Shown piece by piece: positions 13,438 through 54,156 of a DNA stretch of 58,042 nucleotides. The translations under genes were made by a program, and so were the position numbers. Each line of letters starts with the position of its first letter. The stretch's first letter is position 1. The notes under the pieces were generated by a model. That model did not search any database. It had not been told where the DNA came from and was given only the letters and a program-made list of their open reading frames with translations. Source of the stretch: Terriglobales bacterium (GTDB taxonomy: Bacteria; Acidobacteriota; Terriglobia; Terriglobales; Acidobacteriaceae); contig DASPRM010000060.1 of the NCBI GenBank assembly GCA_035624455.1, forward strand, positions 1-58,042, in the 5' to 3' direction.

Positions 13438-14169
13438 TCACGCGGGACGAGGCTTCTTTCCCGGCATGAAATGATATGGCGGCCAGGGACCGCTCATCAC
13501 CAGCTCGCAATTTTTCAATTGCTTGGTCGCGCTGGCATAGCGGTTGTGATACTTCTCGATGGAGTTGCTCTCGATCAGGTGCGCAATATCGATGAGGAGC
13601 CCTCCCGAGTCGACCTTCTTACAGCTTATTTCTTCTGCCAGAGGAGCGAACAGCTTGTGCACCTGCACGGAAAGCGACTTGGCCTTGCTCTGCCGGTCAC
13701 GTTGCAGGGCAGCACGCTCCCGCAAATGAGCCAGATACGCGCTTCCCACGGCGGCAGGAAGCTCGGTGTCGGCCAGGTCACGCAGGCTGCCGTCGCGCAC
13801 CACCACCTTCAGGTGCATTTCCGACTTGCCGCGGAGCTGTTGCACGCTCTCCAGGAAAGCCTTACGATTGCCGCGAACCGCGCGGCGTAGCGCTTCATCC
13901 GTCTCAAAGACGGTGCCAAAGCGGAAAGGCAGAACTGTAGTTTGACGGAAGCAGTCGGCTACTACACGGGCATGGTCCAGGGCTGCTTGCTGGTCCAGAG
14001 TGCCGGCCGCCAGATAGGGGCTGACCACAACTGCGAATTCCCCACTGGGATAACCTAACACCTGTGAATCGTTGATTCCTCGCAAACCTTCGATGGGAAA
14101 GGGACGCCGGGCGCGTGCTCCGGCAAGGAAAGCCTGCTGTTCTGCGATGCAATATGCGTACCACGCCAT
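13438..14169 (-). CDS. GvpL/GvpF family gas-vesicle-type protein (orphan)
   Basis: A 243-residue protein of the GvpL/GvpF family. Diagnostic parts: the N-terminal YAYCIAEQQ, the central VLPFRFGTVFETDEALRRAV, LKVVVRDGSLRDL and the C-terminal LVMSGPWPPYHF motif shared by all GvpL/F proteins. In gas-vesicle producers it is an accessory protein at the forming shell. No GvpA, GvpN, GvpK or GvpG gene is in the window, so the role here is open. An AGAG-rich ribosome site precedes the ATG. About 320 bp separate it from the upstream protease operon. Confidence 0.9.
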   Translation of the reverse strand: MAWYAYCIAEQQAFLAGARARRPFPIEGLRGINDSQVLGYPSGEFAVVVSPYLAAGTLDQQAALDHARVVADCFRQTTVLPFRFGTVFETDEALRRAVRGNRKAFLESVQQLRGKSEMHLKVVVRDGSLRDLADTELPAAVGSAYLAHLRERAALQRDRQSKAKSLSVQVHKLFAPLAEEISCKKVDSGGLLIDIAHLIESNSIEKYHNRYASATKQLKNCELVMSGPWPPYHFMPGKKPRPA

Positions 14170-14487: not shown

Positions 14488-15483
14488 TCAGTGCCAACGA
14501 GTCGTGAAGTTTGTCTGTACCGCCTGCCCATAGGCATCGTGCAAGCCTAGATCTGAATCCTGCACCGGCAAATCTACCGGCTCCGCAGTCACGGTGTAGC
14601 TATCAGCGGGAAGTCCCCGAATCGTGTAGGTGCCTCCTGGGATCGTGTAAGCGCCGATGGGCGTCTTGCGAATGCTGCTGAAATTGCTGAACGGCTGAGA
14701 AGCTGTGGTTGAATCGGCAAAGACATGGGCGCCGAATACTGCGTTCCCGTTTAGGCGCACCGTGCCCGAGATTGAGCTGGTGGGTACATCAGGAGTTGAT
14801 TTCGGATACAGAAACGACGCGCCAGCTACGTCGTCGTAACTGAGAGTAGTGATGTCGCTGGCGGAAACGAACATCACCGAGCGCACAACTGCGGTGTGGT
14901 CCAAGCCAAGAAGGTGTCCGATTTCATGCGTAGCTACCACTTGCAGCGGAATCTGGTTATTGCCGCTCGCGCCATTCGGGCAGCTTCCCCCGTTGATGTC
15001 GGTAAAGCAATCGGCGGGATTAAACAGAATGAAGGCGTTGGTGATTTGAGCAAAGCTGCCGGCACCGGGCTGCGAAGTACTGATGGTGACACCCAGGGTC
15101 TCAGAGTCCCTGGTGAAATCCTGGGCGTCGGCGCACGCAAAGCAGATGAAGTTCAAGTTCTGCGGGTTATTGGTTTCTGAGCAAGTTGAGCAGTCTGCGC
15201 CCTGAGTAAATTGAATAGCGACGTTGGGCGCGCTCGACCAGGTGGCAAAGGCACTCGTCAACACTGCGCGAAAATTGAGCCCGTTGGCGATATTACCCTT
15301 GGAGCTATCCGGATTCAGGTTCCAGTTAACACTGTTGGTAGGCCACTGATCCGGTTGCGGGGAAGCACACGATCCATTCCCAGGACAAGTCAGGCTAGGC
15401 TGGGCTGCAAAGCTGCTCATCGTAGGAAACAGGAGCAGGACGGCAAGAGTGCAGTTTAGGGCTAATCTCATGGTCACTTTCAT
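14488..15483 (-). CDS. Secreted matrixin-like metalloprotease with carboxypeptidase-regulatory-like domain
   Basis: 331 residues with a signal peptide (LNCTLAVLLLFPTMSSFAA). The catalytic zinc site is HEIGHLLGLDH near residue 186, the matrixin/metzincin HExxHxxGxxH pattern, followed by a Met-turn candidate in RSVMF. Six cysteines before the active site suggest disulphides. After residue 235 there is a small beta domain (SSISGTVRLNGNAVFGAHVF), as in carboxypeptidase regulatory-like modules. The protein stops abruptly after TNFTTRWH, so a C-terminal part may be missing. Its start overlaps the preceding stop by 4 bp, so translation is probably coupled. Confidence 0.9.
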   Translation of the reverse strand: MKVTMRLALNCTLAVLLLFPTMSSFAAQPSLTCPGNGSCASPQPDQWPTNSVNWNLNPDSSKGNIANGLNFRAVLTSAFATWSSAPNVAIQFTQGADCSTCSETNNPQNLNFICFACADAQDFTRDSETLGVTISTSQPGAGSFAQITNAFILFNPADCFTDINGGSCPNGASGNNQIPLQVVATHEIGHLLGLDHTAVVRSVMFVSASDITTLSYDDVAGASFLYPKSTPDVPTSSISGTVRLNGNAVFGAHVFADSTTASQPFSNFSSIRKTPIGAYTIPGGTYTIRGLPADSYTVTAEPVDLPVQDSDLGLHDAYGQAVQTNFTTRWH

Positions 15484-16022
15484 TGCGTGAGTGCTCCCCT
15501 AACCACCGATTCCAGGTCCGCTAGTCTCATGGATGCGCCCGCGTAGTGCTCGACCTTGCCCTGTTGCAGGCTGTGAACGCCGCTCACCCCATTGCTGGCG
15601 ATCATCTCGCCAGTTGTGCTGCGCGCGATTCGAAAATTACCCTGCATCAGGCCGACGATCACGTGGGTTCCGTCCCCGGCCTGGCTGGGCCGCAGGAAGA
15701 GCATGGCCTGCTCGCCGATCTGGAATTGCCTTACCCCAGCGACTTTTTGCGTCACATTGCCGACCTTGCCGCCGATCTGCTTCACGGTAATGCTTTGTGA
15801 GGTCCCTTTCAAACTCTGAATCACCTGCATCTGGGTGTAGGTGTAGATCAGAGTGTGTTGCGGGTTCCATGCAGACCACGAATTCAGCACGGTGGCCTCC
15901 ACTACGTCACTCGCGCGACGGGTAAGCTCTTCTACCGAGATGGGCACAATCATGGTTGCGTTCAGGTTGGACCGCAGGATCAGGCAAAGAACACAAGCAG
16001 CAAAAATGCGAACCATCCTCAT
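15480..16022 (-). CDS. Secreted protein of unknown function, partner of the matrixin gene
   Basis: 180 residues with an N-terminal signal sequence (IFAACVLCLILRSNLNA). The mature part begins TMIVPISVEELTRRASDVVE and has an alternating beta pattern with conserved-looking WNPQHTLIYTYTQMQV and GEQAMLFLRPS, typical of small secreted beta-rich domains found next to metalloproteases in acidobacterial genomes. No catalytic motif is recognised. Four-base ATGA overlaps with both neighbours indicate a translationally coupled three-gene unit. A role as inhibitor, chaperone or substrate of the protease is speculation. Confidence 0.8.
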   Translation of the reverse strand: MRMVRIFAACVLCLILRSNLNATMIVPISVEELTRRASDVVEATVLNSWSAWNPQHTLIYTYTQMQVIQSLKGTSQSITVKQIGGKVGNVTQKVAGVRQFQIGEQAMLFLRPSQAGDGTHVIVGLMQGNFRIARSTTGEMIASNGVSGVHSLQQGKVEHYAGASMRLADLESVVRGALTQ

Positions 16023-16546
16023 GGCACCACCTCCAGTCCGCCGCTAAACGTCGTGATGTTGCCGCTCGTATCCTGCAGGCGAACCGTACGCGCTCCCAGG
16101 TCAGCACTGCTGGAAATAGCGGCGGTGAACTGAATGCCAGGAATGGGCGGCCTATCCGTTGATTGAATGCTAACTAGATTGCTGATGGTGATATCGCTGG
16201 GGCCGGAGATAGTCACTTGCATGTTTCCGGAAAGACCCGGCCCAAACAGAATTACCTGCACCGTACTTCCGCGATGAGCGATGTCCCCAGTATTGCTGGC
16301 AATGCCTTGGGTATTCGCGCCCAGGTCCTCGGCGTTAGGTGGGGTGCTGGACGTCGGGGAAGCCACGGTGATATCAATGCCAGTGGTTGGCTGACCCGCG
16401 GCTGCCGTCACGGTTGTGGGCGCCCCCACCGGAAAACTGCTGCCACCATTCCCGCCGCTGCTGTTGGAGTTACCCGAGGAACCGCCACCGCCTCCACAAG
16501 CCGCCAGCAGAACACAGAAAATTAGAACTACGGATATTCGATACAC
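16019..16546 (-). CDS. Lipoprotein with IPT/TIG-like C-terminal domain
   Basis: 175 residues from a GTG at 16546 behind AGAGGA. A lipobox (VLLAACGGGG) gives lipid attachment at Cys17. A Gly/Ser/Asn-rich linker follows to about residue 38, then a beta-rich domain with VQVILFGPGLSGNMQVTISG, the pattern of IPT/TIG immunoglobulin-like folds. It should be anchored in a membrane facing the periplasm or outside. First gene of the unit ending in the matrixin; overlap with the next gene is 4 bp. Confidence 0.85.
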   Translation of the reverse strand: MYRISVVLIFCVLLAACGGGGGSSGNSNSSGGNGGSSFPVGAPTTVTAAAGQPTTGIDITVASPTSSTPPNAEDLGANTQGIASNTGDIAHRGSTVQVILFGPGLSGNMQVTISGPSDITISNLVSIQSTDRPPIPGIQFTAAISSSADLGARTVRLQDTSGNITTFSGGLEVVP

Positions 16547-16703
16547 TCGTGCAATCCTCTGATGTGCAGGATAAAGCAGGACACCTATTAGAAACTCAGG
16601 AATGCATCCCGAGTTGCATCAGAAACTCCTCCCGACGTGCCCGAAGTAGCACCAGGAGATTGCACCTCCGGCCAGCTTGCCCTTAGAATGCCCCGTCGGC
16701 AAG

Positions 16704-17684
16704 ATGGTCCCTCCCCTGCTAGACAACCCTATTGTGCTCCAGCAATTGCGACGAAAATTGCTGCGCTGGTACTACCGCCACCAACGCGATCTCCCCTGGC
16801 GTCGCACCTCGGATCCTTATCGGGTATGGGTTTCCGAAATCATGCTTCAGCAGACGCGAGTGGCTGCGGTGTTGGAACACTATGAACGCTTCTTGAGAAA
16901 ATTTCCGACGCTCGCGAGCCTGGCCTCGGCCAAAGAATCGGCTGTGCTCGCCAGTTGGAGCGGGCTGGGTTACTATCGGCGCGCCCGCAACCTGCACGCG
17001 GCTGCAAAGAAAATGGCCGCTGAATTCGCCGGACAAATCCCGAGGGGGATTACACAACTTCGAGAGCTACCTGGAATCGGGCGGTACACGGCAGCCGCCG
17101 TTGCCAGCATCGCCTTCCAGGAACCTGTGGCAGTGGTGGATGGCAACGTTGAAAGAGTGGTTAAGCGGTTGTTTGCTGATGGCGCTGGCAGCGAAACAAA
17201 AGTTTGGGATGCGGCTGAAAAATTACTAAGCCGCCGTCGTCCCGGGGACTTCAACCAGGCGATGATGGAACTCGGGGCCGAGATCTGTCTGCCACGCGAA
17301 CCTCGATGCCGCCTTTGTCCGCTGTTCGCGTGGTGCCGGGCGCGTGGCACATTGCCGTCGCTGCCGGCAAAAGAAGTGCGCCGCCGGATGGAATTGCGCT
17401 GCGATCTTCACAGTGACTGCGATCGCGTGTATCTGGTGCGGCGCAGGAGCAGCACGAATCTCATGCCGGGGATGTGGGAACTGCCCGTGCACCCCTTTGC
17501 AGGAAACAAGAGCCGTCCCGCCGCGCTGTTCAAACATTCCATTCTGTCTACCGACTATCGAGTCCTTGTATTTCGCTGCAATGGAAATGCCCAAGGCGGA
17601 AGATGGATCAAGCAATCGCAGTTGGCGGAACTTCCCCTGACCGGCCTTGCACGGAAGATCTTGCGGCATTTTCAGCTCATTTAG
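16704..17684 (+). CDS. mutY: A/G-specific adenine DNA glycosylase
   Basis: About 326 residues from the ATG at 16704 (the frame stays open to a TTG at 16677). It removes adenine mispaired with 8-oxoguanine. Visible: RDLPWRRTSDPYRVWVSEIM at the N-terminus, the EIMLQQTRV motif with the catalytic Glu, the helix-hairpin-helix LPGIGRYTAAAVASIAF with the following Asp in VVDGNVERV, and the 4Fe-4S cysteines in CLPREPRCRLCPLFAWC. The C-terminal NUDIX-like domain that recognises 8-oxoguanine is short. Next gene, 26 bp on, is a thioredoxin-fold peroxidase, so the pair may serve oxidative damage defence. Confidence 0.95.
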   Translation: MVPPLLDNPIVLQQLRRKLLRWYYRHQRDLPWRRTSDPYRVWVSEIMLQQTRVAAVLEHYERFLRKFPTLASLASAKESAVLASWSGLGYYRRARNLHAAAKKMAAEFAGQIPRGITQLRELPGIGRYTAAAVASIAFQEPVAVVDGNVERVVKRLFADGAGSETKVWDAAEKLLSRRRPGDFNQAMMELGAEICLPREPRCRLCPLFAWCRARGTLPSLPAKEVRRRMELRCDLHSDCDRVYLVRRRSSTNLMPGMWELPVHPFAGNKSRPAALFKHSILSTDYRVLVFRCNGNAQGGRWIKQSQLAELPLTGLARKILRHFQLI

Positions 17685-19032: not shown

Positions 19033-20895
19033 CTACTTGACTTCGAGAGAAACGATGTCGCCGTCGCTAGTGCCGCCGGCCTTGTAGTTCACCAGGACAC
19101 TACGGTTGCGCCAATCGCAGGAGAAGGCATCCTCACCTACCAGCAGCATCTTCTTATAGTCGGAAGACCGCATCTTCATGGTCTTGCCGTTGGCGATCAC
19201 GGTTAGCACTGCCGCCGGGGGCGCTGAGCAGTCGCAAGCGATCAACTTGCCGTAGAGGTACTTCACGGGACGAGTATCGGCCACTGGTTGCTCGGCTGGC
19301 TTTTCCTCGTCACTCGAGAGGGGCGCCGTCTTGCGCCATTGCGGAGCCGTGATGTCGTCTCGCGCTCTGGGAGTGCTGCGTGGCTGGTTCTTGGCAACCC
19401 CCAACCCCGGGCCAATGCCCACCGTAGTTTTGCCCTGCTTGGCCAGATCGAGAGTCTTCAACTGCTGCGCGGCCAGTTGCACGATCTTCGGATTGGAGCT
19501 CTTCTGCAGGCGCAGGAGAACCGCCTCTGCCTGGTCCCAGTTCTTATTCTGCAGATACAGATTCCCGAGATTGATGCCATAAAACTCGTTGCTCGGGTTC
19601 AGCTCTATGGCTTTCTTGATCGCCGTGAGAGCGGCGGGGTAATCGCCGGACATGCTGTCAGCATAAGCCAGCAGGTTGTAGGCATCGGCGAGCGTGGGAT
19701 CCAGTTCGATGGCGATCTGAAGCTGGCGTTTCATTTCTGCCACATTATCCGGTGGACGGCCGGCCAGCACGGCGCGGCGATTCATTAGCAGAGCGACCAG
19801 ATAGTGAACCTTGGCATCGCGGATATCTTTCCTGGTTGCTTCCTCGAAGTAGCGCTCAGCCGTGGCAAAGTCACCTTTAGAGAGGTAGCTGTAGCCCATG
19901 CCCCGGTTGGCGATTGGATCTTCCGGGTCCCGTTTGAGAATTTGCTGGAATTCGCCGACCGCCTGGTCTTTGTAGTCCTTGGAATGAGCGTGCAAGTCTG
20001 CCAGTGTGGCCTGAATTGTCACCTCATCCAGACGGCGCACGACGTAGGTACTTTCATCCATCTGAGGTGCAGGTACGCGAAATGACTTGCCTTTGCCGTC
20101 AAAGTAGCCGTGTAACGTCTTGTCCAACTGAGCGGGCTCCATGCCAAAAGCCTGTTGAATCGCCTCGGGAATGGGAACCTTCTCAATCTGTGCCAGTTGG
20201 AGGTATTTCGCGGCTTCCGCCATCTTTTGGTTCGACATCAGCCAATGCATCACCAGCCAGGATTGCGCGTAAAAGATGGTACGCGTATTGCCTTCGTTGT
20301 AGGCGCTGGAATCGTGCTGCACGCCGAAAAGATCGACGACCGTCATCCAGGAAGTATTGGTAAGGATCTGCGGCAGACCCTCCGGCACTTGTCCGTACTG
20401 GACTTCCTTCTTGTCGAACCGCAGGGTGGAAAAATATTCGGCAAAGCCTTCATCGAACCAGGGGGGAACGGGCGGCAGGTTGCCATGCAGCAGCAGATGA
20501 GCGTATTCGTGGAAGGCGGTGGTCCAGCCGGGTTCAACCGAAAGATCGAGCACGATGAAGTTCTCGTCATCAGCTCCCTGGAAGAATCCCGTCAGGGAGA
20601 CGGGCTGCCCCTTCCACAGCGGCGCATAAGGAATCATCTCCTGGGTCGAGCGAAAAGCCACAATCTGCAAAGGCGTGGATAGATTGACGCGTGACCGATT
20701 GAAGATGGTGCCGAACAGGCTGCGCATCTGCTCGAATCGAAGAAGAATCGCGCGCCCGGCTTTATCTCCGCCGTCGGTGACAAGAACGAAGTGCGGCGAA
20801 CGGATCTCAATCCATCCTTGGTCCGCGGCGGGAGCATAGAGTGTCAGCAGAAGGAAGAAAATCAGGGTGAGACGAGATTGCGGATGGCGGCCCAT
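19033..20895 (-). CDS. Secreted peptidase-MA/DUF1570-like protein with TPR repeats
   Basis: A 620-residue exported protein (signal LTLIFFLLLTLYAPAA). Residues 25-270 form a gluzincin-like domain with H129EYAH133 and a downstream glutamate in FDEGFAEYFS near residue 155, the layout of metallopeptidases of the MA clan and DUF1570. Residues 300-470 hold tetratricopeptide repeats (for example ANRGMGYSYLSKGDFATAER and ADAYNLLAYADSMSGDYPAA). The C-terminal 150 residues are partly disordered and end in a small beta domain with DCSAPPAAVLTVIANG. Probably acts in the periplasm on cell-surface protein or peptidoglycan-linked targets; no substrate evidence. Transcribed alone. Confidence 0.87.
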   Translation of the reverse strand: MGRHPQSRLTLIFFLLLTLYAPAADQGWIEIRSPHFVLVTDGGDKAGRAILLRFEQMRSLFGTIFNRSRVNLSTPLQIVAFRSTQEMIPYAPLWKGQPVSLTGFFQGADDENFIVLDLSVEPGWTTAFHEYAHLLLHGNLPPVPPWFDEGFAEYFSTLRFDKKEVQYGQVPEGLPQILTNTSWMTVVDLFGVQHDSSAYNEGNTRTIFYAQSWLVMHWLMSNQKMAEAAKYLQLAQIEKVPIPEAIQQAFGMEPAQLDKTLHGYFDGKGKSFRVPAPQMDESTYVVRRLDEVTIQATLADLHAHSKDYKDQAVGEFQQILKRDPEDPIANRGMGYSYLSKGDFATAERYFEEATRKDIRDAKVHYLVALLMNRRAVLAGRPPDNVAEMKRQLQIAIELDPTLADAYNLLAYADSMSGDYPAALTAIKKAIELNPSNEFYGINLGNLYLQNKNWDQAEAVLLRLQKSSNPKIVQLAAQQLKTLDLAKQGKTTVGIGPGLGVAKNQPRSTPRARDDITAPQWRKTAPLSSDEEKPAEQPVADTRPVKYLYGKLIACDCSAPPAAVLTVIANGKTMKMRSSDYKKMLLVGEDAFSCDWRNRSVLVNYKAGGTSDGDIVSLEVK

Positions 20896-50112: not shown

Positions 50113-53100
50113 CTAGGACTTTTCGGAAATTGGAACGAAAGCTTTGACTGTCGTTCCCTTCTTGCTCGAGGATATTTCCAGGGTTCCTCCCAATTGCGCC
50201 AGGCGTTCCCTCATGCCGAGAATTCCCACTCCCACGCGGGGGTTGGCTCCCGGTGCGGACAGCATTTCCGGAGGAAGCCCCTTTCCAGTGTCGCTGATCT
50301 CCAGCCACACTCCCTGCCCCTTGGAAGCGATTTGCACTCGTGCTGTCTTGGCGCCGGAGTGGCGGCGAATGTTGTTTAACGCTTCTTGAACGGTTCTGAA
50401 CAAGGCGATCTCGATGTCCTCGGGCAGGCGATCAAGCTTGGCAGGGGTCACCAGTTCCACTTCCAATCCCGAGCGTTTGGAAAATCCATCCACCAGCCAG
50501 CGCGTAGCCGAAACCAGTCCCGCCTCGTCCAGCAACGGCGGGTGTAGCAAGTGGGCCACGGTGCGAAGCTCCTGCAGGGCTTCGTCCACCAGGTTGGTGG
50601 AGGATTGCAGAGCGGTTTTCCGCTCAGGCTTGGGAGAATCTTTCAGCAGCGTGTCCAGGCTCATTTTGGCAGCCGCCAGCTTCTGCCCAGCGGAATCATG
50701 CAGGTCGCGGGCGATTCGCCGCCGCTCCTCATCCTGCAGACGAATGAGACGGGCGGAGAGCTGGCGGAGGCTGTCTTCGGAACGGCGGCGGAGCGTAATG
50801 TCGGTGTTGATCTCTAAAATCTCGTGTCCATCGCTGGCGCCGAGAATTGCCCAACGGCTATCTACCGTTCTGTGTTCGCCATCACGGCGGGTGTGAATGA
50901 GTTCGCCTTCCCAGTGTCCGGTGCGCAGCAACTCGGTTTGAATCTCTTCGAATGGCCTGGGGAACCTGGTCTGCAGGATTTCATGAGTTTTCTTTCCCAG
51001 CACCTCCATCTTTTTCCAGCCATAAAGTTCTTCGGCGCCGCTATTCCAGAAGCGGATTTTGCCCTCCAAATCGCGTCGCAGGATCGCCTCGCGAGCCATT
51101 TCCAGCAAAGCGGCCTGTCTCTTTAGGTCATCCAGCTGTCTCCGCTGCTCGGTGATGTCTTGAATGGAGAGAAGGATGCGATCCCGTTGCGGCTGGGGCT
51201 CGATGCTGCGCGCATTCAACAGCATTACTCGATACCCCAGAGTTGGAAACTCGTGGCTCACTTCGAAGTCTTGTACCTGCTCCTCCGATTGCAACATGTT
51301 CACCAGCAATTCCCGGAGCTTCGGAATATTCCACTGGCCATTTCCTAGCTCGTAGATCAGACGTCCCTCGGTCTCTTCCGGCGAGACCTGGAAGGTATGA
51401 TAAAAGGAGGGGTTGGCAACAGTGACTCTTAAGCTGGCGTCCATCAGCAGCACCGATTCCCGGGCATTCTCAATCAGGTTCTGAGCAAGACTGCGGGTTT
51501 GATCGAGCGTGCGCTTCAACGCGTCAATATCCTGGAAGCTGATCACCGCGCCATCGATCTTACTGTCCCAGGTTTTGTAAGGACGCACACGCATGGCATA
51601 CCAGATCCCCTGCTTGTCGCGAATCTCACTCTCACGCAATATGGCGCGATCCATGGTGTCGCGGACAACCTCTTCCAGATTCTCCAGTTGAACATTCGGT
51701 TTGATCTCATCCAACCGCCGTCCAATGTCGGCGGGAATCAGGTTCATCAGTTTTTCTGCTGGAGGGGTAATGCGGCGAATGCGCAGATCATTGCCCACCA
51801 TCACCACAGCGATGTTTACGTTCGCCAGCAGATTGAGCAGATCGTTGTTGGCCAGGCTAAGCTCCACGTTGCGGTTCTGCAGTTCTTCATTGAGAGTGGT
51901 GAGCTCTTCGTTGCTCGATTGCAGCTCTTCTTTGGCGGTTTCCAGTTCCTCATTAGTGCTCTGCAATTCCTCATTGGCTGACAGCACCTCCTCGTTGGCC
52001 GCCTTGAACTCTTCCGTCGTGGTCTCGTGCTCCTCGATCAGCGCCTGCAGCTGTTCCCGAAGCTGGTTTATCTCCCGCTGCAATCTCTCGTTCTGCTGTA
52101 CTACACCGCTTTTTTTGCGCGCCTCCTTTTCCGAGATTCTTTTTTCGACTGGCTTGCGAACCTCGCGGGCAACATCCTGGAAGACCACGGCAAACATGCG
52201 CTCTCCGGATTCGCGCCCTTGAATGGGTACGATTTCCAGGTTCACCTCTGTAGTGCCGCCGTTCGATCTGACGTGAACACCCTCCTTACGGACAACCGTG
52301 TTCTCCTTCTTTGCCTTGCTCAGCGCCGTACGCAGATCCACCAGTAATCCTTCGCGCGCCATCTTGGAGAGGCTGAAGGTGGGATGACCGGCAGCAGGCT
52401 CCAGATAAGCCCCGGTTCGCCCCCGAAACTGAATAATCTCCAAGTCTTCGTTGACCACGATACTAGGGGGGATGTAGCGGCTCGCCAGCGTTCGCTCCAC
52501 CTCTTTGTCGATACTTATTGCGGTGCCGTTACTTTTAGGCGGTCGGTATTCCTCAAGCCGGCGCGGGGAATAATCCGCAGCCGTGAAGTAAGTCACCAGG
52601 CGGCTGGAAGTCATCTTTTTCTTGTAGATCTTGTACTTCTTATCCGTGAGGCTGAAGTGTTCGGTGAAACCACCCAGGCTCTCCGACCCGCCCAGCATCA
52701 GATAGCCACCCGCCTTGAGCGCATAATGGAGCGCCGGAATCACGCGCTTCTGCAGAACCGGTCCCAGGTAAATCAGCAGGTTGCGGCAACTGATCAAGTC
52801 CAGGTTGGAAAAAGGCGGATCCCTCACCAGGTTCTGCTTGGCGAAGATGCACATATCGCGGACCGCCTTGTTGATCTGGTAGCCTCCGTCTAAGCGCACA
52901 AAAAAGCGCTTCAGCCGTTCGGGAGAAATTTCCGCCACGCCGGCATCCGTGTAGAGGCCGGCGCGTGCGCGGTCCAGGGCAGTGTCGCTGATGTCGGTGG
53001 CGAAGATCTGCACCGATTTCGCGCTGGCGCTGGCCAATGGAATAGTGCGCCCCTGCTCCCACATGTACTCCAGCAGAATCATGGCGATCGAATAGACTTC

Positions 53101-54156
53101 TTCGCCGGTGGAACAGCCGGGCACCCAGATTCGGATCGGCAAAGGATCGTGCTTGCGTTCCTTGAAGAGGTCCGGAAAAACGTGCTTGCGCAGCGCTTCA
53201 AAGGCTCCTTCGTCGCGGAAGAAGCCGGTGACGTGGATGAGGATCTCGCGGTAAAGTTCATCCAGTTCGGCCGGGTTTTCTCTAACGTACCGTACGTATT
53301 GTTTGAGACTCTCCAACTGGTGCAGCACCATGCGTCGCTTGATGCGCCGCTGCAGCGTGGTTTGTTTGTAGTAGGCGAAATCCACGCCGGTGGCTTCGCG
53401 AATCATGGCAAACAGGGTTTCCAGATGTGTGCTGGCGGCAATTTGGGCGGAATCTTCCTCGGATAACGGAACTCGTGCCACGTAAGGGTGACGGCCAATC
53501 CGTGCCAGCTCCTGCGCAATTCCTTTCGGGGGAAGCACGAAATCGATGCAGCCCGCGTGAATAGCGCTTTTGGGCATGCTGTCATACTTGGCGGACTTTT
53601 CATCCTGGGCGAAGGTGATTCCCCCAGCCGCCTTGATAGCGGTGCAGCCTTCGGTGCCGTCTGAGGCCGTACCCGACAGGATCACACCGATGGCCTGATC
53701 GCCCCGATCATCCGCCAACGAGTGGAAGAAATGATCGATGGGCATATGCTGCCCACGGGTCAGACGGCGCACCGCAAGATGCAGCACTCCGTTCGTGGTC
53801 GCCATGTCCGTGTTAGCAGGAATGACATAAATATGATCCGGCTCGACGGCAACTCCGTCGGCGACCTCAGTAACCGGAATCTTGGTGGTGCGGGCGAGAA
53901 TTTCCTGCAGAACGCTTCCGTGAGTAGGATCCAGGTGCTGCACCAGCACAAATGCCATCCCGGTTTTCTCCGGCAGGTGGCGCAGCAACTCTGAGAAGGC
54001 TTCCAATCCTCCGGCGGACGCGCCAATCCCCACAATCGGAAACTGGCGCGGTTTGGTTGCAGAATCGGGAGCAACTTCCTTTCCGGCAGTCGCAACAACA
54101 GATCTCTGCTTAGCGGATTTCTTCTTGGCGGGGTCGCTTTGGGCAGGTTTCTTCAT
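50113..54156 (-). CDS. CheB-CheR-PAS-histidine kinase fusion protein
   Basis: 1347 residues. Domains in order: CheB methylesterase (about 40-225; IVGIGASAGGLEAFSELLRH and FVLVQHLDPTHGSVLQEILA), CheR methyltransferase (about 240-500; IRIWVPGCSTGEEVYSIAMI and FATDISDTALDRARAGLY), a coiled coil (about 680-770; AANEEVLSANEELQSTNEEL), two or three PAS segments, then a NarL-type kinase core: RIARDLHDSAGQKLAAAKMS with the phosphorylatable His near 1151 and a HATPase ending near 1345. CheB and CheR normally remove and add methyl groups on chemoreceptors; no chemotaxis gene is nearby. A ribosome site GAGG precedes ATG 54156. Known as a fused class in other bacteria; the input and output here are unknown. 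Confidence 0.95.
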   Translation of the reverse strand: MKKPAQSDPAKKKSAKQRSVVATAGKEVAPDSATKPRQFPIVGIGASAGGLEAFSELLRHLPEKTGMAFVLVQHLDPTHGSVLQEILARTTKIPVTEVADGVAVEPDHIYVIPANTDMATTNGVLHLAVRRLTRGQHMPIDHFFHSLADDRGDQAIGVILSGTASDGTEGCTAIKAAGGITFAQDEKSAKYDSMPKSAIHAGCIDFVLPPKGIAQELARIGRHPYVARVPLSEEDSAQIAASTHLETLFAMIREATGVDFAYYKQTTLQRRIKRRMVLHQLESLKQYVRYVRENPAELDELYREILIHVTGFFRDEGAFEALRKHVFPDLFKERKHDPLPIRIWVPGCSTGEEVYSIAMILLEYMWEQGRTIPLASASAKSVQIFATDISDTALDRARAGLYTDAGVAEISPERLKRFFVRLDGGYQINKAVRDMCIFAKQNLVRDPPFSNLDLISCRNLLIYLGPVLQKRVIPALHYALKAGGYLMLGGSESLGGFTEHFSLTDKKYKIYKKKMTSSRLVTYFTAADYSPRRLEEYRPPKSNGTAISIDKEVERTLASRYIPPSIVVNEDLEIIQFRGRTGAYLEPAAGHPTFSLSKMAREGLLVDLRTALSKAKKENTVVRKEGVHVRSNGGTTEVNLEIVPIQGRESGERMFAVVFQDVAREVRKPVEKRISEKEARKKSGVVQQNERLQREINQLREQLQALIEEHETTTEEFKAANEEVLSANEELQSTNEELETAKEELQSSNEELTTLNEELQNRNVELSLANNDLLNLLANVNIAVVMVGNDLRIRRITPPAEKLMNLIPADIGRRLDEIKPNVQLENLEEVVRDTMDRAILRESEIRDKQGIWYAMRVRPYKTWDSKIDGAVISFQDIDALKRTLDQTRSLAQNLIENARESVLLMDASLRVTVANPSFYHTFQVSPEETEGRLIYELGNGQWNIPKLRELLVNMLQSEEQVQDFEVSHEFPTLGYRVMLLNARSIEPQPQRDRILLSIQDITEQRRQLDDLKRQAALLEMAREAILRRDLEGKIRFWNSGAEELYGWKKMEVLGKKTHEILQTRFPRPFEEIQTELLRTGHWEGELIHTRRDGEHRTVDSRWAILGASDGHEILEINTDITLRRRSEDSLRQLSARLIRLQDEERRRIARDLHDSAGQKLAAAKMSLDTLLKDSPKPERKTALQSSTNLVDEALQELRTVAHLLHPPLLDEAGLVSATRWLVDGFSKRSGLEVELVTPAKLDRLPEDIEIALFRTVQEALNNIRRHSGAKTARVQIASKGQGVWLEISDTGKGLPPEMLSAPGANPRVGVGILGMRERLAQLGGTLEISSSKKGTTVKAFVPISEKS

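Follow-up and report, generated by a model that had tools for sequence, protein, structure and literature searches.

A secreted protein family encoded ahead of, or fused to, matrixin-type proteases in Acidobacteriota, with a possible role in protease control

The window, which is the whole stretch of 58,042 nucleotides analysed here, carries a locus of three overlapping genes for a lipoprotein, a small secreted protein (termed the middle protein) and a matrixin protease. By its sequence the middle protein defines a new secreted family, and the linkage of this family to metzincin proteases, as neighbouring genes or as domains of a single polypeptide, is strongly supported across the phylum Acidobacteriota. 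In gene order and, in the fusions, in the polypeptide, the middle protein occupies the position of the propeptide of animal matrix metalloproteinases. We favour the reading that the three genes specify a matrixin tethered at the cell surface and a secreted regulator dedicated to it, and assign this reading a probability of roughly 0.45.

Table 1. Coordinates of the three-gene locus, its junctions and its divergent neighbour in the window.
Feature	Position	Strand	Description and basis
Lipoprotein gene	16019..16546	(-)	175 aa, GTG start, first of the trio; ORF and sequence
Middle gene	15480..16022	(-)	Secreted 180-aa matrixin-partner protein; ORF and sequence
Matrixin gene	14488..15483	(-)	331 aa; ORF; PF00413, E 8.9e-14
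ATGA overlap, lipoprotein stop/middle start	16019..16022	(-)	Sequence; start codon at same position in 9/10 orthologous loci
ATGA overlap, middle stop/matrixin start	15480..15483	(-)	Sequence; start codon at same position in 9/10 orthologous loci
Zinc-binding motif HEIGHLLGLDH, matrixin residues 186-196	14896..14928	(-)	Translation
mutY-like gene, divergent neighbour of the trio	16677..17684	(+)	PF00730, E 1.1e-22

The three open reading frames and the ATGA at both junctions were borne out in coordinates, strand and sequence (Table 1). The original prediction had also held that the three proteins are made as one coupled unit. The four-base overlaps make translational coupling likely, but it is not exclusive, because the start of each trio gene is also preceded by a purine-rich Shine-Dalgarno-like stretch. 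Directly downstream of the trio, at 13438-14169 on the minus strand, lies a gene for a GvpL/GvpF gas-vesicle family protein (PF06386, E 7.6e-49).

The protease was compared with the Pfam collection and passed the peptidase M10 model PF00413 with 52.1 bits, against a curated cut-off of 24. The M10 catalytic domain covers residues 47-226, and the Met-turn methionine, Met204, is located downstream of the zinc motif; with these features the protein can be accepted as a real matrixin, as had been proposed. A hydrophobic, signal-peptide-like stretch could be read from the sequence at the N terminus, and behind the catalytic domain residues 237-302 resembled a CarboxypepD_reg-like domain, with a match to PF13620 (E 1.4e-5) that fell below the cut-off of that model. 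The closest NCBIfam model was NF041905, which covers the MXAN_2677/MXAN_2678 metalloproteases of myxobacteria (E 7.1e-16). The window matrixin is not a member of that family, since it scored 58.1 bits against a cut-off of 250, and whereas NF041905 is described as myxosortase-dependent, no C-terminal sorting tail was seen in the window protein. No match to the window matrixin was found in phages.

The middle protein likewise has a hydrophobic, signal-peptide-like start, and the mature form probably begins at Thr23 (T-x-x-x-P), which corresponds to window position 15956. The protein gave no match in Pfam, NCBIfam or PHROGs, so that its description as a protein without a family held, and the idea that it might be an ordinary enzyme was rejected in the absence of any family match at all. 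Relatives were detected by plain protein search in 85 of the 297 sampled genomes of the phylum, and a profile built from 31 sequences extended the family to 129 of those 297. A weak match to the NCBIfam model NF047549, a Leptospira exoprotein, was given by three of the 31 family members (best E 3.9e-4), and no such match was seen among eight other members picked for a repeat; on these weak matches, the family may extend beyond the phylum. No relative was found in five scans of viral contigs, nor in plasmid records for four middle-protein family queries. A survey of the open-access literature on bacterial and acidobacterial matrixins, metzincins, TIMP-like proteins and NTR domains found no publication on the family.

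The conservation of the three-gene arrangement was examined in close relatives of the window. A scan of species genomes identified a Terriglobia MAG (L002) in which all three genes are present and overlap in the same manner; this MAG is labelled Acidobacteriota, and the phylum was taken from that label. Among 100 genomes of the GTDB family to which the window belongs, 13 matched the middle protein at E ≤1e-5 and 87 did not, so the distribution of the trio is patchy. The match was strong (E <1e-50) in ten of the 13, the window's own genome included, and only weak in the remaining three (G317, G330 and G343). One of these ten, the locus L123, proved to be the same as L002, with an identical lipoprotein and two other proteins that read the same, and merging the two gave ten distinct trio loci. 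In all ten the order was lipoprotein, middle protein, matrixin, and in all ten a mutY sequence motif was found on the opposite strand just upstream. A start codon lay at the position of the four-base overlap in nine of the ten loci at each junction, the exceptions being L129 and L125. The ten middle proteins formed one well-supported clade (100/99) in the middle-protein tree. The recurrence of the trio, the mutY motif and the overlaps in ten distinct genomes is more than chance, and the synteny check found the three genes linked in all ten loci. By the mutY neighbour, recognized in the relatives through its sequence motif, the ten loci can be identified as one and the same site on the chromosome.

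Linkage was then followed in the wider family. Among the matches listed, 85 of 150 family matches were followed, within 2.5 kb and on the same strand, by a match to PF00413. When pairs no more than 4 kb apart were counted among the same matches, 89 had the partner first, four had the reverse order and none lay on opposite strands; gene order itself was measured only by this count of listed family and PF00413 matches. Loci were also fetched for a non-random set of 101 distinct family members, made up of the best matches, the matches lacking PF00413 downstream and the orthologues from the GTDB family, after removal of duplicates. A metzincin was sought within 1.8 kb downstream or behind the middle-protein domain in the same reading frame. 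In this set 49 members had a separate metzincin directly downstream, 39 were fused to one, five had none and eight were scored as lying at a contig or locus edge, so that a metzincin partner was present for 88 of the 101. One member, L085, was scored as a locus end in this count; it has a metzincin motif in frame and was treated as fused in the tree. A four-base overlap joined 34 of the 49 separate pairs, and in the fused proteins the middle-protein domain precedes the metzincin.

The 65 listed matches without PF00413 downstream were resolved by looking up 62 loci, with four loci merged with duplicates and one match at a contig end (G201:C10) left out. The resulting 61 members comprised 33 fusions, 15 separate pairs, five members without a metzincin and eight at a locus edge. 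The metzincins recovered in this way had been missed by the Pfam model at the threshold used, or lay outside the matches listed.

Partner and metzincin are linked in this way in many GTDB families of the phylum. On a tree of 87 pairs the fused or separate label needed three changes, of which at least two were forced by well-supported branches, and fusion or fission has therefore occurred more than once. The fusions in turn indicate that partner and protease act together. The core proposal, a protease delivered with a dedicated secreted partner and a membrane-anchored protein, withstands its refutation check, as the homologues are linked rather than unlinked and the middle protein matches no enzyme family; with 39 of 101 members fused to a metzincin, the linkage is also wider than the original prediction had seen. 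In the five family members that have no metzincin beside them (L065, L067, L068, L071 and L103), the C terminus is a hydrophobic, helix-like stretch that ends in basic residues. Such an ending is as in a tail anchor or a sorting signal.

The zymogens of matrix metalloproteinases have a propeptide with a cysteine switch, a motif of the PRCGxPD type. A motif search detected no cysteine switch, either in the window matrixin or among 131 metzincin ORF entries (88 of them distinct), and because this motif is missing the usual propeptide control is absent from these metzincins. The exact zinc motif was missing from 11 of the 88 metzincin partners. Sequence reading showed that the three histidines are kept in four of these (L013, L106, L108 and L138), and that one or more zinc ligands are lost in the other seven (L077, L078, L084, L090, L096, L104 and L117), all of which have kept the family member; in L084, for example, REFGKFLGLAS replaces HExxHxxGxxH. 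Five of the seven (L077, L084, L090, L096 and L117) form one well-supported clade in the tree. These five look like secreted pseudoproteases.

A possible relationship between the middle-protein family and the tissue inhibitors of metalloproteinases (TIMPs) was studied by profile-profile alignment. When a 100-sequence family alignment was compared with four TIMP sequences by hhalign, the score was 21.9 (P 0.0043, probability 8%), a value to be read beside the 21.0 that the TIMP profile alone can reach with an unrelated window ORF. None of 400 column-shuffled TIMP alignments scored as high against the family, and nor did any of 54 control ORFs (best 19.1), which were mechanically called window ORFs of at least 150 residues, some of which need not be genes. 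Mature residue 2 was aligned to TIMP residue 2 in ten of ten random halves of the family, and the fused subset (33 sequences, score 18.2) and the separate subset (30 sequences, score 19.3) matched along the same diagonal. With single TIMPs, the scores were 19.7 for TIMP-1, 19.4 for TIMP-2 and 14.7 for TIMP-3 (P 0.07). The ten direct orthologues alone gave no signal against TIMP (score 10.4, P 0.61).

Other searches gave no support for the resemblance. The TIMP (PF00965) and NTR models of Pfam matched none of 31 family members at E ≤1, and no TIMP was among the matches of the family profile in the PDB. The mature middle protein contains no cysteines, and the N-terminal and disulfide cysteines of TIMP are accordingly absent. 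AlphaFold2, applied to the whole and the mature middle protein with two input sequences, returned pLDDT values of 40 and 36. The mature N terminus itself is regular across the family: Thr, Ala or Ser occupies position 1 in 84 of 100 sequences, and in 98 of 100 the first conserved core strand lies 18 residues from this terminus. This constant spacing suggests that the N terminus has a fixed position. Given a weak profile match, a TIMP-like fold and an inhibitory function of the middle protein are putative, and the evidence for them is suggestive rather than conclusive.

The lipoprotein was characterized in the same manner. Its sequence contains a lipobox (LLAAC, with Cys17), followed by a low-complexity Gly/Ser linker and a domain of ~120 residues, and the lipobox cysteine is invariant in all ten aligned orthologues. 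The orthologues in the nine other genomes are 43-53% identical to the window protein. A BLAST search of the 297 genomes of the phylum found the window alone, and the clear relatives of the lipoprotein are those of the trio clade. The domain had originally been described as IPT/TIG-like, a name that reflects resemblance only. Pfam assigned no family to the ten orthologues, with IPT/TIG (PF01833) detected in none of the ten at E ≤1, and the assignment was set aside as unproven.

A profile of the lipoprotein, searched with the HMMER filters off, matched larger matrixins in a region that follows their catalytic domain. Lipoproteins aside, all matches at E <0.1 were metzincin ORFs, representing seven distinct genes. 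Near-full-length matches were given by L133 (E 7.8e-6) and by L032/L139 (E ~3e-4 to 4e-4), and the other five were partial and weaker (E 0.007 to 0.086); the best match to reversed control sequences had an E of 0.81. With the default filters fewer matrixins matched, namely L032 in one search and L136 alone in another. On these profile matches, the domain of the lipoprotein resembles a matrixin module that has become a separate, anchored protein. The lipobox, the linkage and the domain fusions make the lipoprotein a candidate tether.

Taken together, these features can be arranged in a working model. The middle protein would be made first and exported, and would then bind the catalytic domain and keep the matrixin folded and quiet in a TIMP-like manner, with its mature N terminus near the zinc cleft. 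A substrate or a release event would free the matrixin from the middle protein. The acylated cysteine of the lipoprotein would anchor the complex to the membrane, and its C-terminal domain, a module that some relatives appear to carry on the protease itself, would hold the enzyme. In its most specific form, the model supposes that a large family of partners, TIMP-like but free of cysteines, awaits description in Acidobacteriota and controls matrixins from the front, as an upstream gene or as a fused domain, with the mature N terminus at the zinc site and the complex kept at the surface by a lipoprotein. We regard this extended version as tentative and, on balance, unlikely.

Simple inhibition at the active site cannot by itself account for these data, because zinc ligands are lost in seven of the 88 metzincin partners and no metzincin accompanies five of the family members. 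The retention of the partner beside proteases without zinc ligands suggests that it has a structural or chaperone role as well. It could be, then, that the middle protein is no inhibitor and instead helps metzincin-fold proteins, as a factor dedicated to them, to fold or to be secreted, in the manner of a steric chaperone acting in trans. A helper would be expected to be encoded first, as the partner is, often with a four-base overlap (34 of 49 separate pairs), and to precede the catalytic domain when fused to it (39 of 101); it would also have reason to stay with the seven proteins in which there is nothing to inhibit. The constant mature N terminus (18 residues in 98 of 100 sequences) and its alignment in the TIMP register have no obvious reason under such a role, however, and the five members without a metzincin would be helpers lacking a client. 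We consider this explanation less probable than the preferred reading.

Those five members, with their C-terminal hydrophobic helix, speak for another explanation, in which the middle protein serves a multidomain surface protease as its module for substrate binding or adhesion and happens to have been split off in some lineages. Fusions such as L014, in which the middle-protein domain is no more than the N-terminal part of a chain that continues with M10 and accessory domains (fn3-like and PKD among them), speak for it as well. A free-standing binding module need not, however, be encoded upstream and be translationally coupled, as is seen in most of the separate pairs, nor should it come first as nearly always as the partner does (89 against four nearby pairs among the matches listed), and we think a binding role somewhat less probable still. 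Finally, the locus might encode three ordinary secreted proteins on one transcript that form no physical complex, their linkage being a matter of chromosomal inheritance. All ten distinct trios do lie at one site beside mutY, as vertical descent alone would give, but the linkage recurs in many GTDB families, includes fusions and has changed its fused state at least twice on the tree, which leaves this last explanation very little room. Our preferred reading is a tethered matrixin with its own secreted regulator.

The animal matrix metalloproteinases and TIMPs (PF00413 and PF00965) share with the window matrixin the same protease domain and its HExxHxxGxxH motif, and the N-domains of TIMPs are what the window partner family weakly matches by profile, in register from mature residue 1. 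The two systems differ in that the animal proteins have the cysteine switch and the TIMP cysteines, whereas the window matrixin lacks the switch and its partner has neither cysteines nor a TIMP Pfam match. The alkaline protease of Pseudomonas and its inhibitor are a further case of a bacterial metzincin with a dedicated endogenous inhibitor. That enzyme belongs to a protease subfamily other than that of the window matrixin, and neither fusions nor a lipoprotein partner are known for this pair. The inhibitor is described as structurally unlike TIMP (PMC8235301).

The closest published case found in the open-access literature is the Mtz-Tim pair of Listeria monocytogenes, a metzincin and a TIMP-like lipoprotein (Boichis et al. 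2021, PMC8235301). According to the description given there, the pair is conserved across species, the similarity of Tim to TIMP is structural and not one of sequence, the genes have links with phages and with mobile elements, and cleavage of Tim by Mtz is reported (PMC8235301). By that description, the Listeria pair resembles the window locus in that the gene of a secreted metzincin lies beside that of an exported protein for which a TIMP-like nature is proposed, a likeness that is weak in the window family. In the published account the protease gene comes first, whereas in the window family the partner comes first or is fused, and the TIMP-like protein of Listeria is itself the lipoprotein, whereas the window encodes a separate one.

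The wider relevance of the family lies in the control of bacterial matrixins. PF00413 was detected in 120 of the 297 sampled genomes of the phylum; matrixins are thus common there, yet those examined lack the cysteine switch, which raises the question of how their activity is restrained. A family of partners that occurs with matrixins throughout the phylum, as neighbouring genes or as fused domains, offers a direct and inexpensive way into that question. Should control from the front by TIMP-like partners prove true, bacteria would have an equivalent of the MMP-TIMP system in which the regulator plays the part of the missing propeptide, and should the TIMP resemblance hold, it would bear on the origin of the animal MMP-TIMP pairing. 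Even without that resemblance, a secreted family that has no Pfam or NCBIfam name gains a testable function.

Two further genes of the window were noted. A TPR protein encoded at 19033-20895 on the minus strand has an N-terminal HEYAH motif and is possibly a second metallopeptidase-like protein of the window. In addition, a reading frame at 50113-54156, also on the minus strand, encodes a single-chain hybrid of 1347 residues that combines CheB, CheR, several PAS domains and a histidine kinase.
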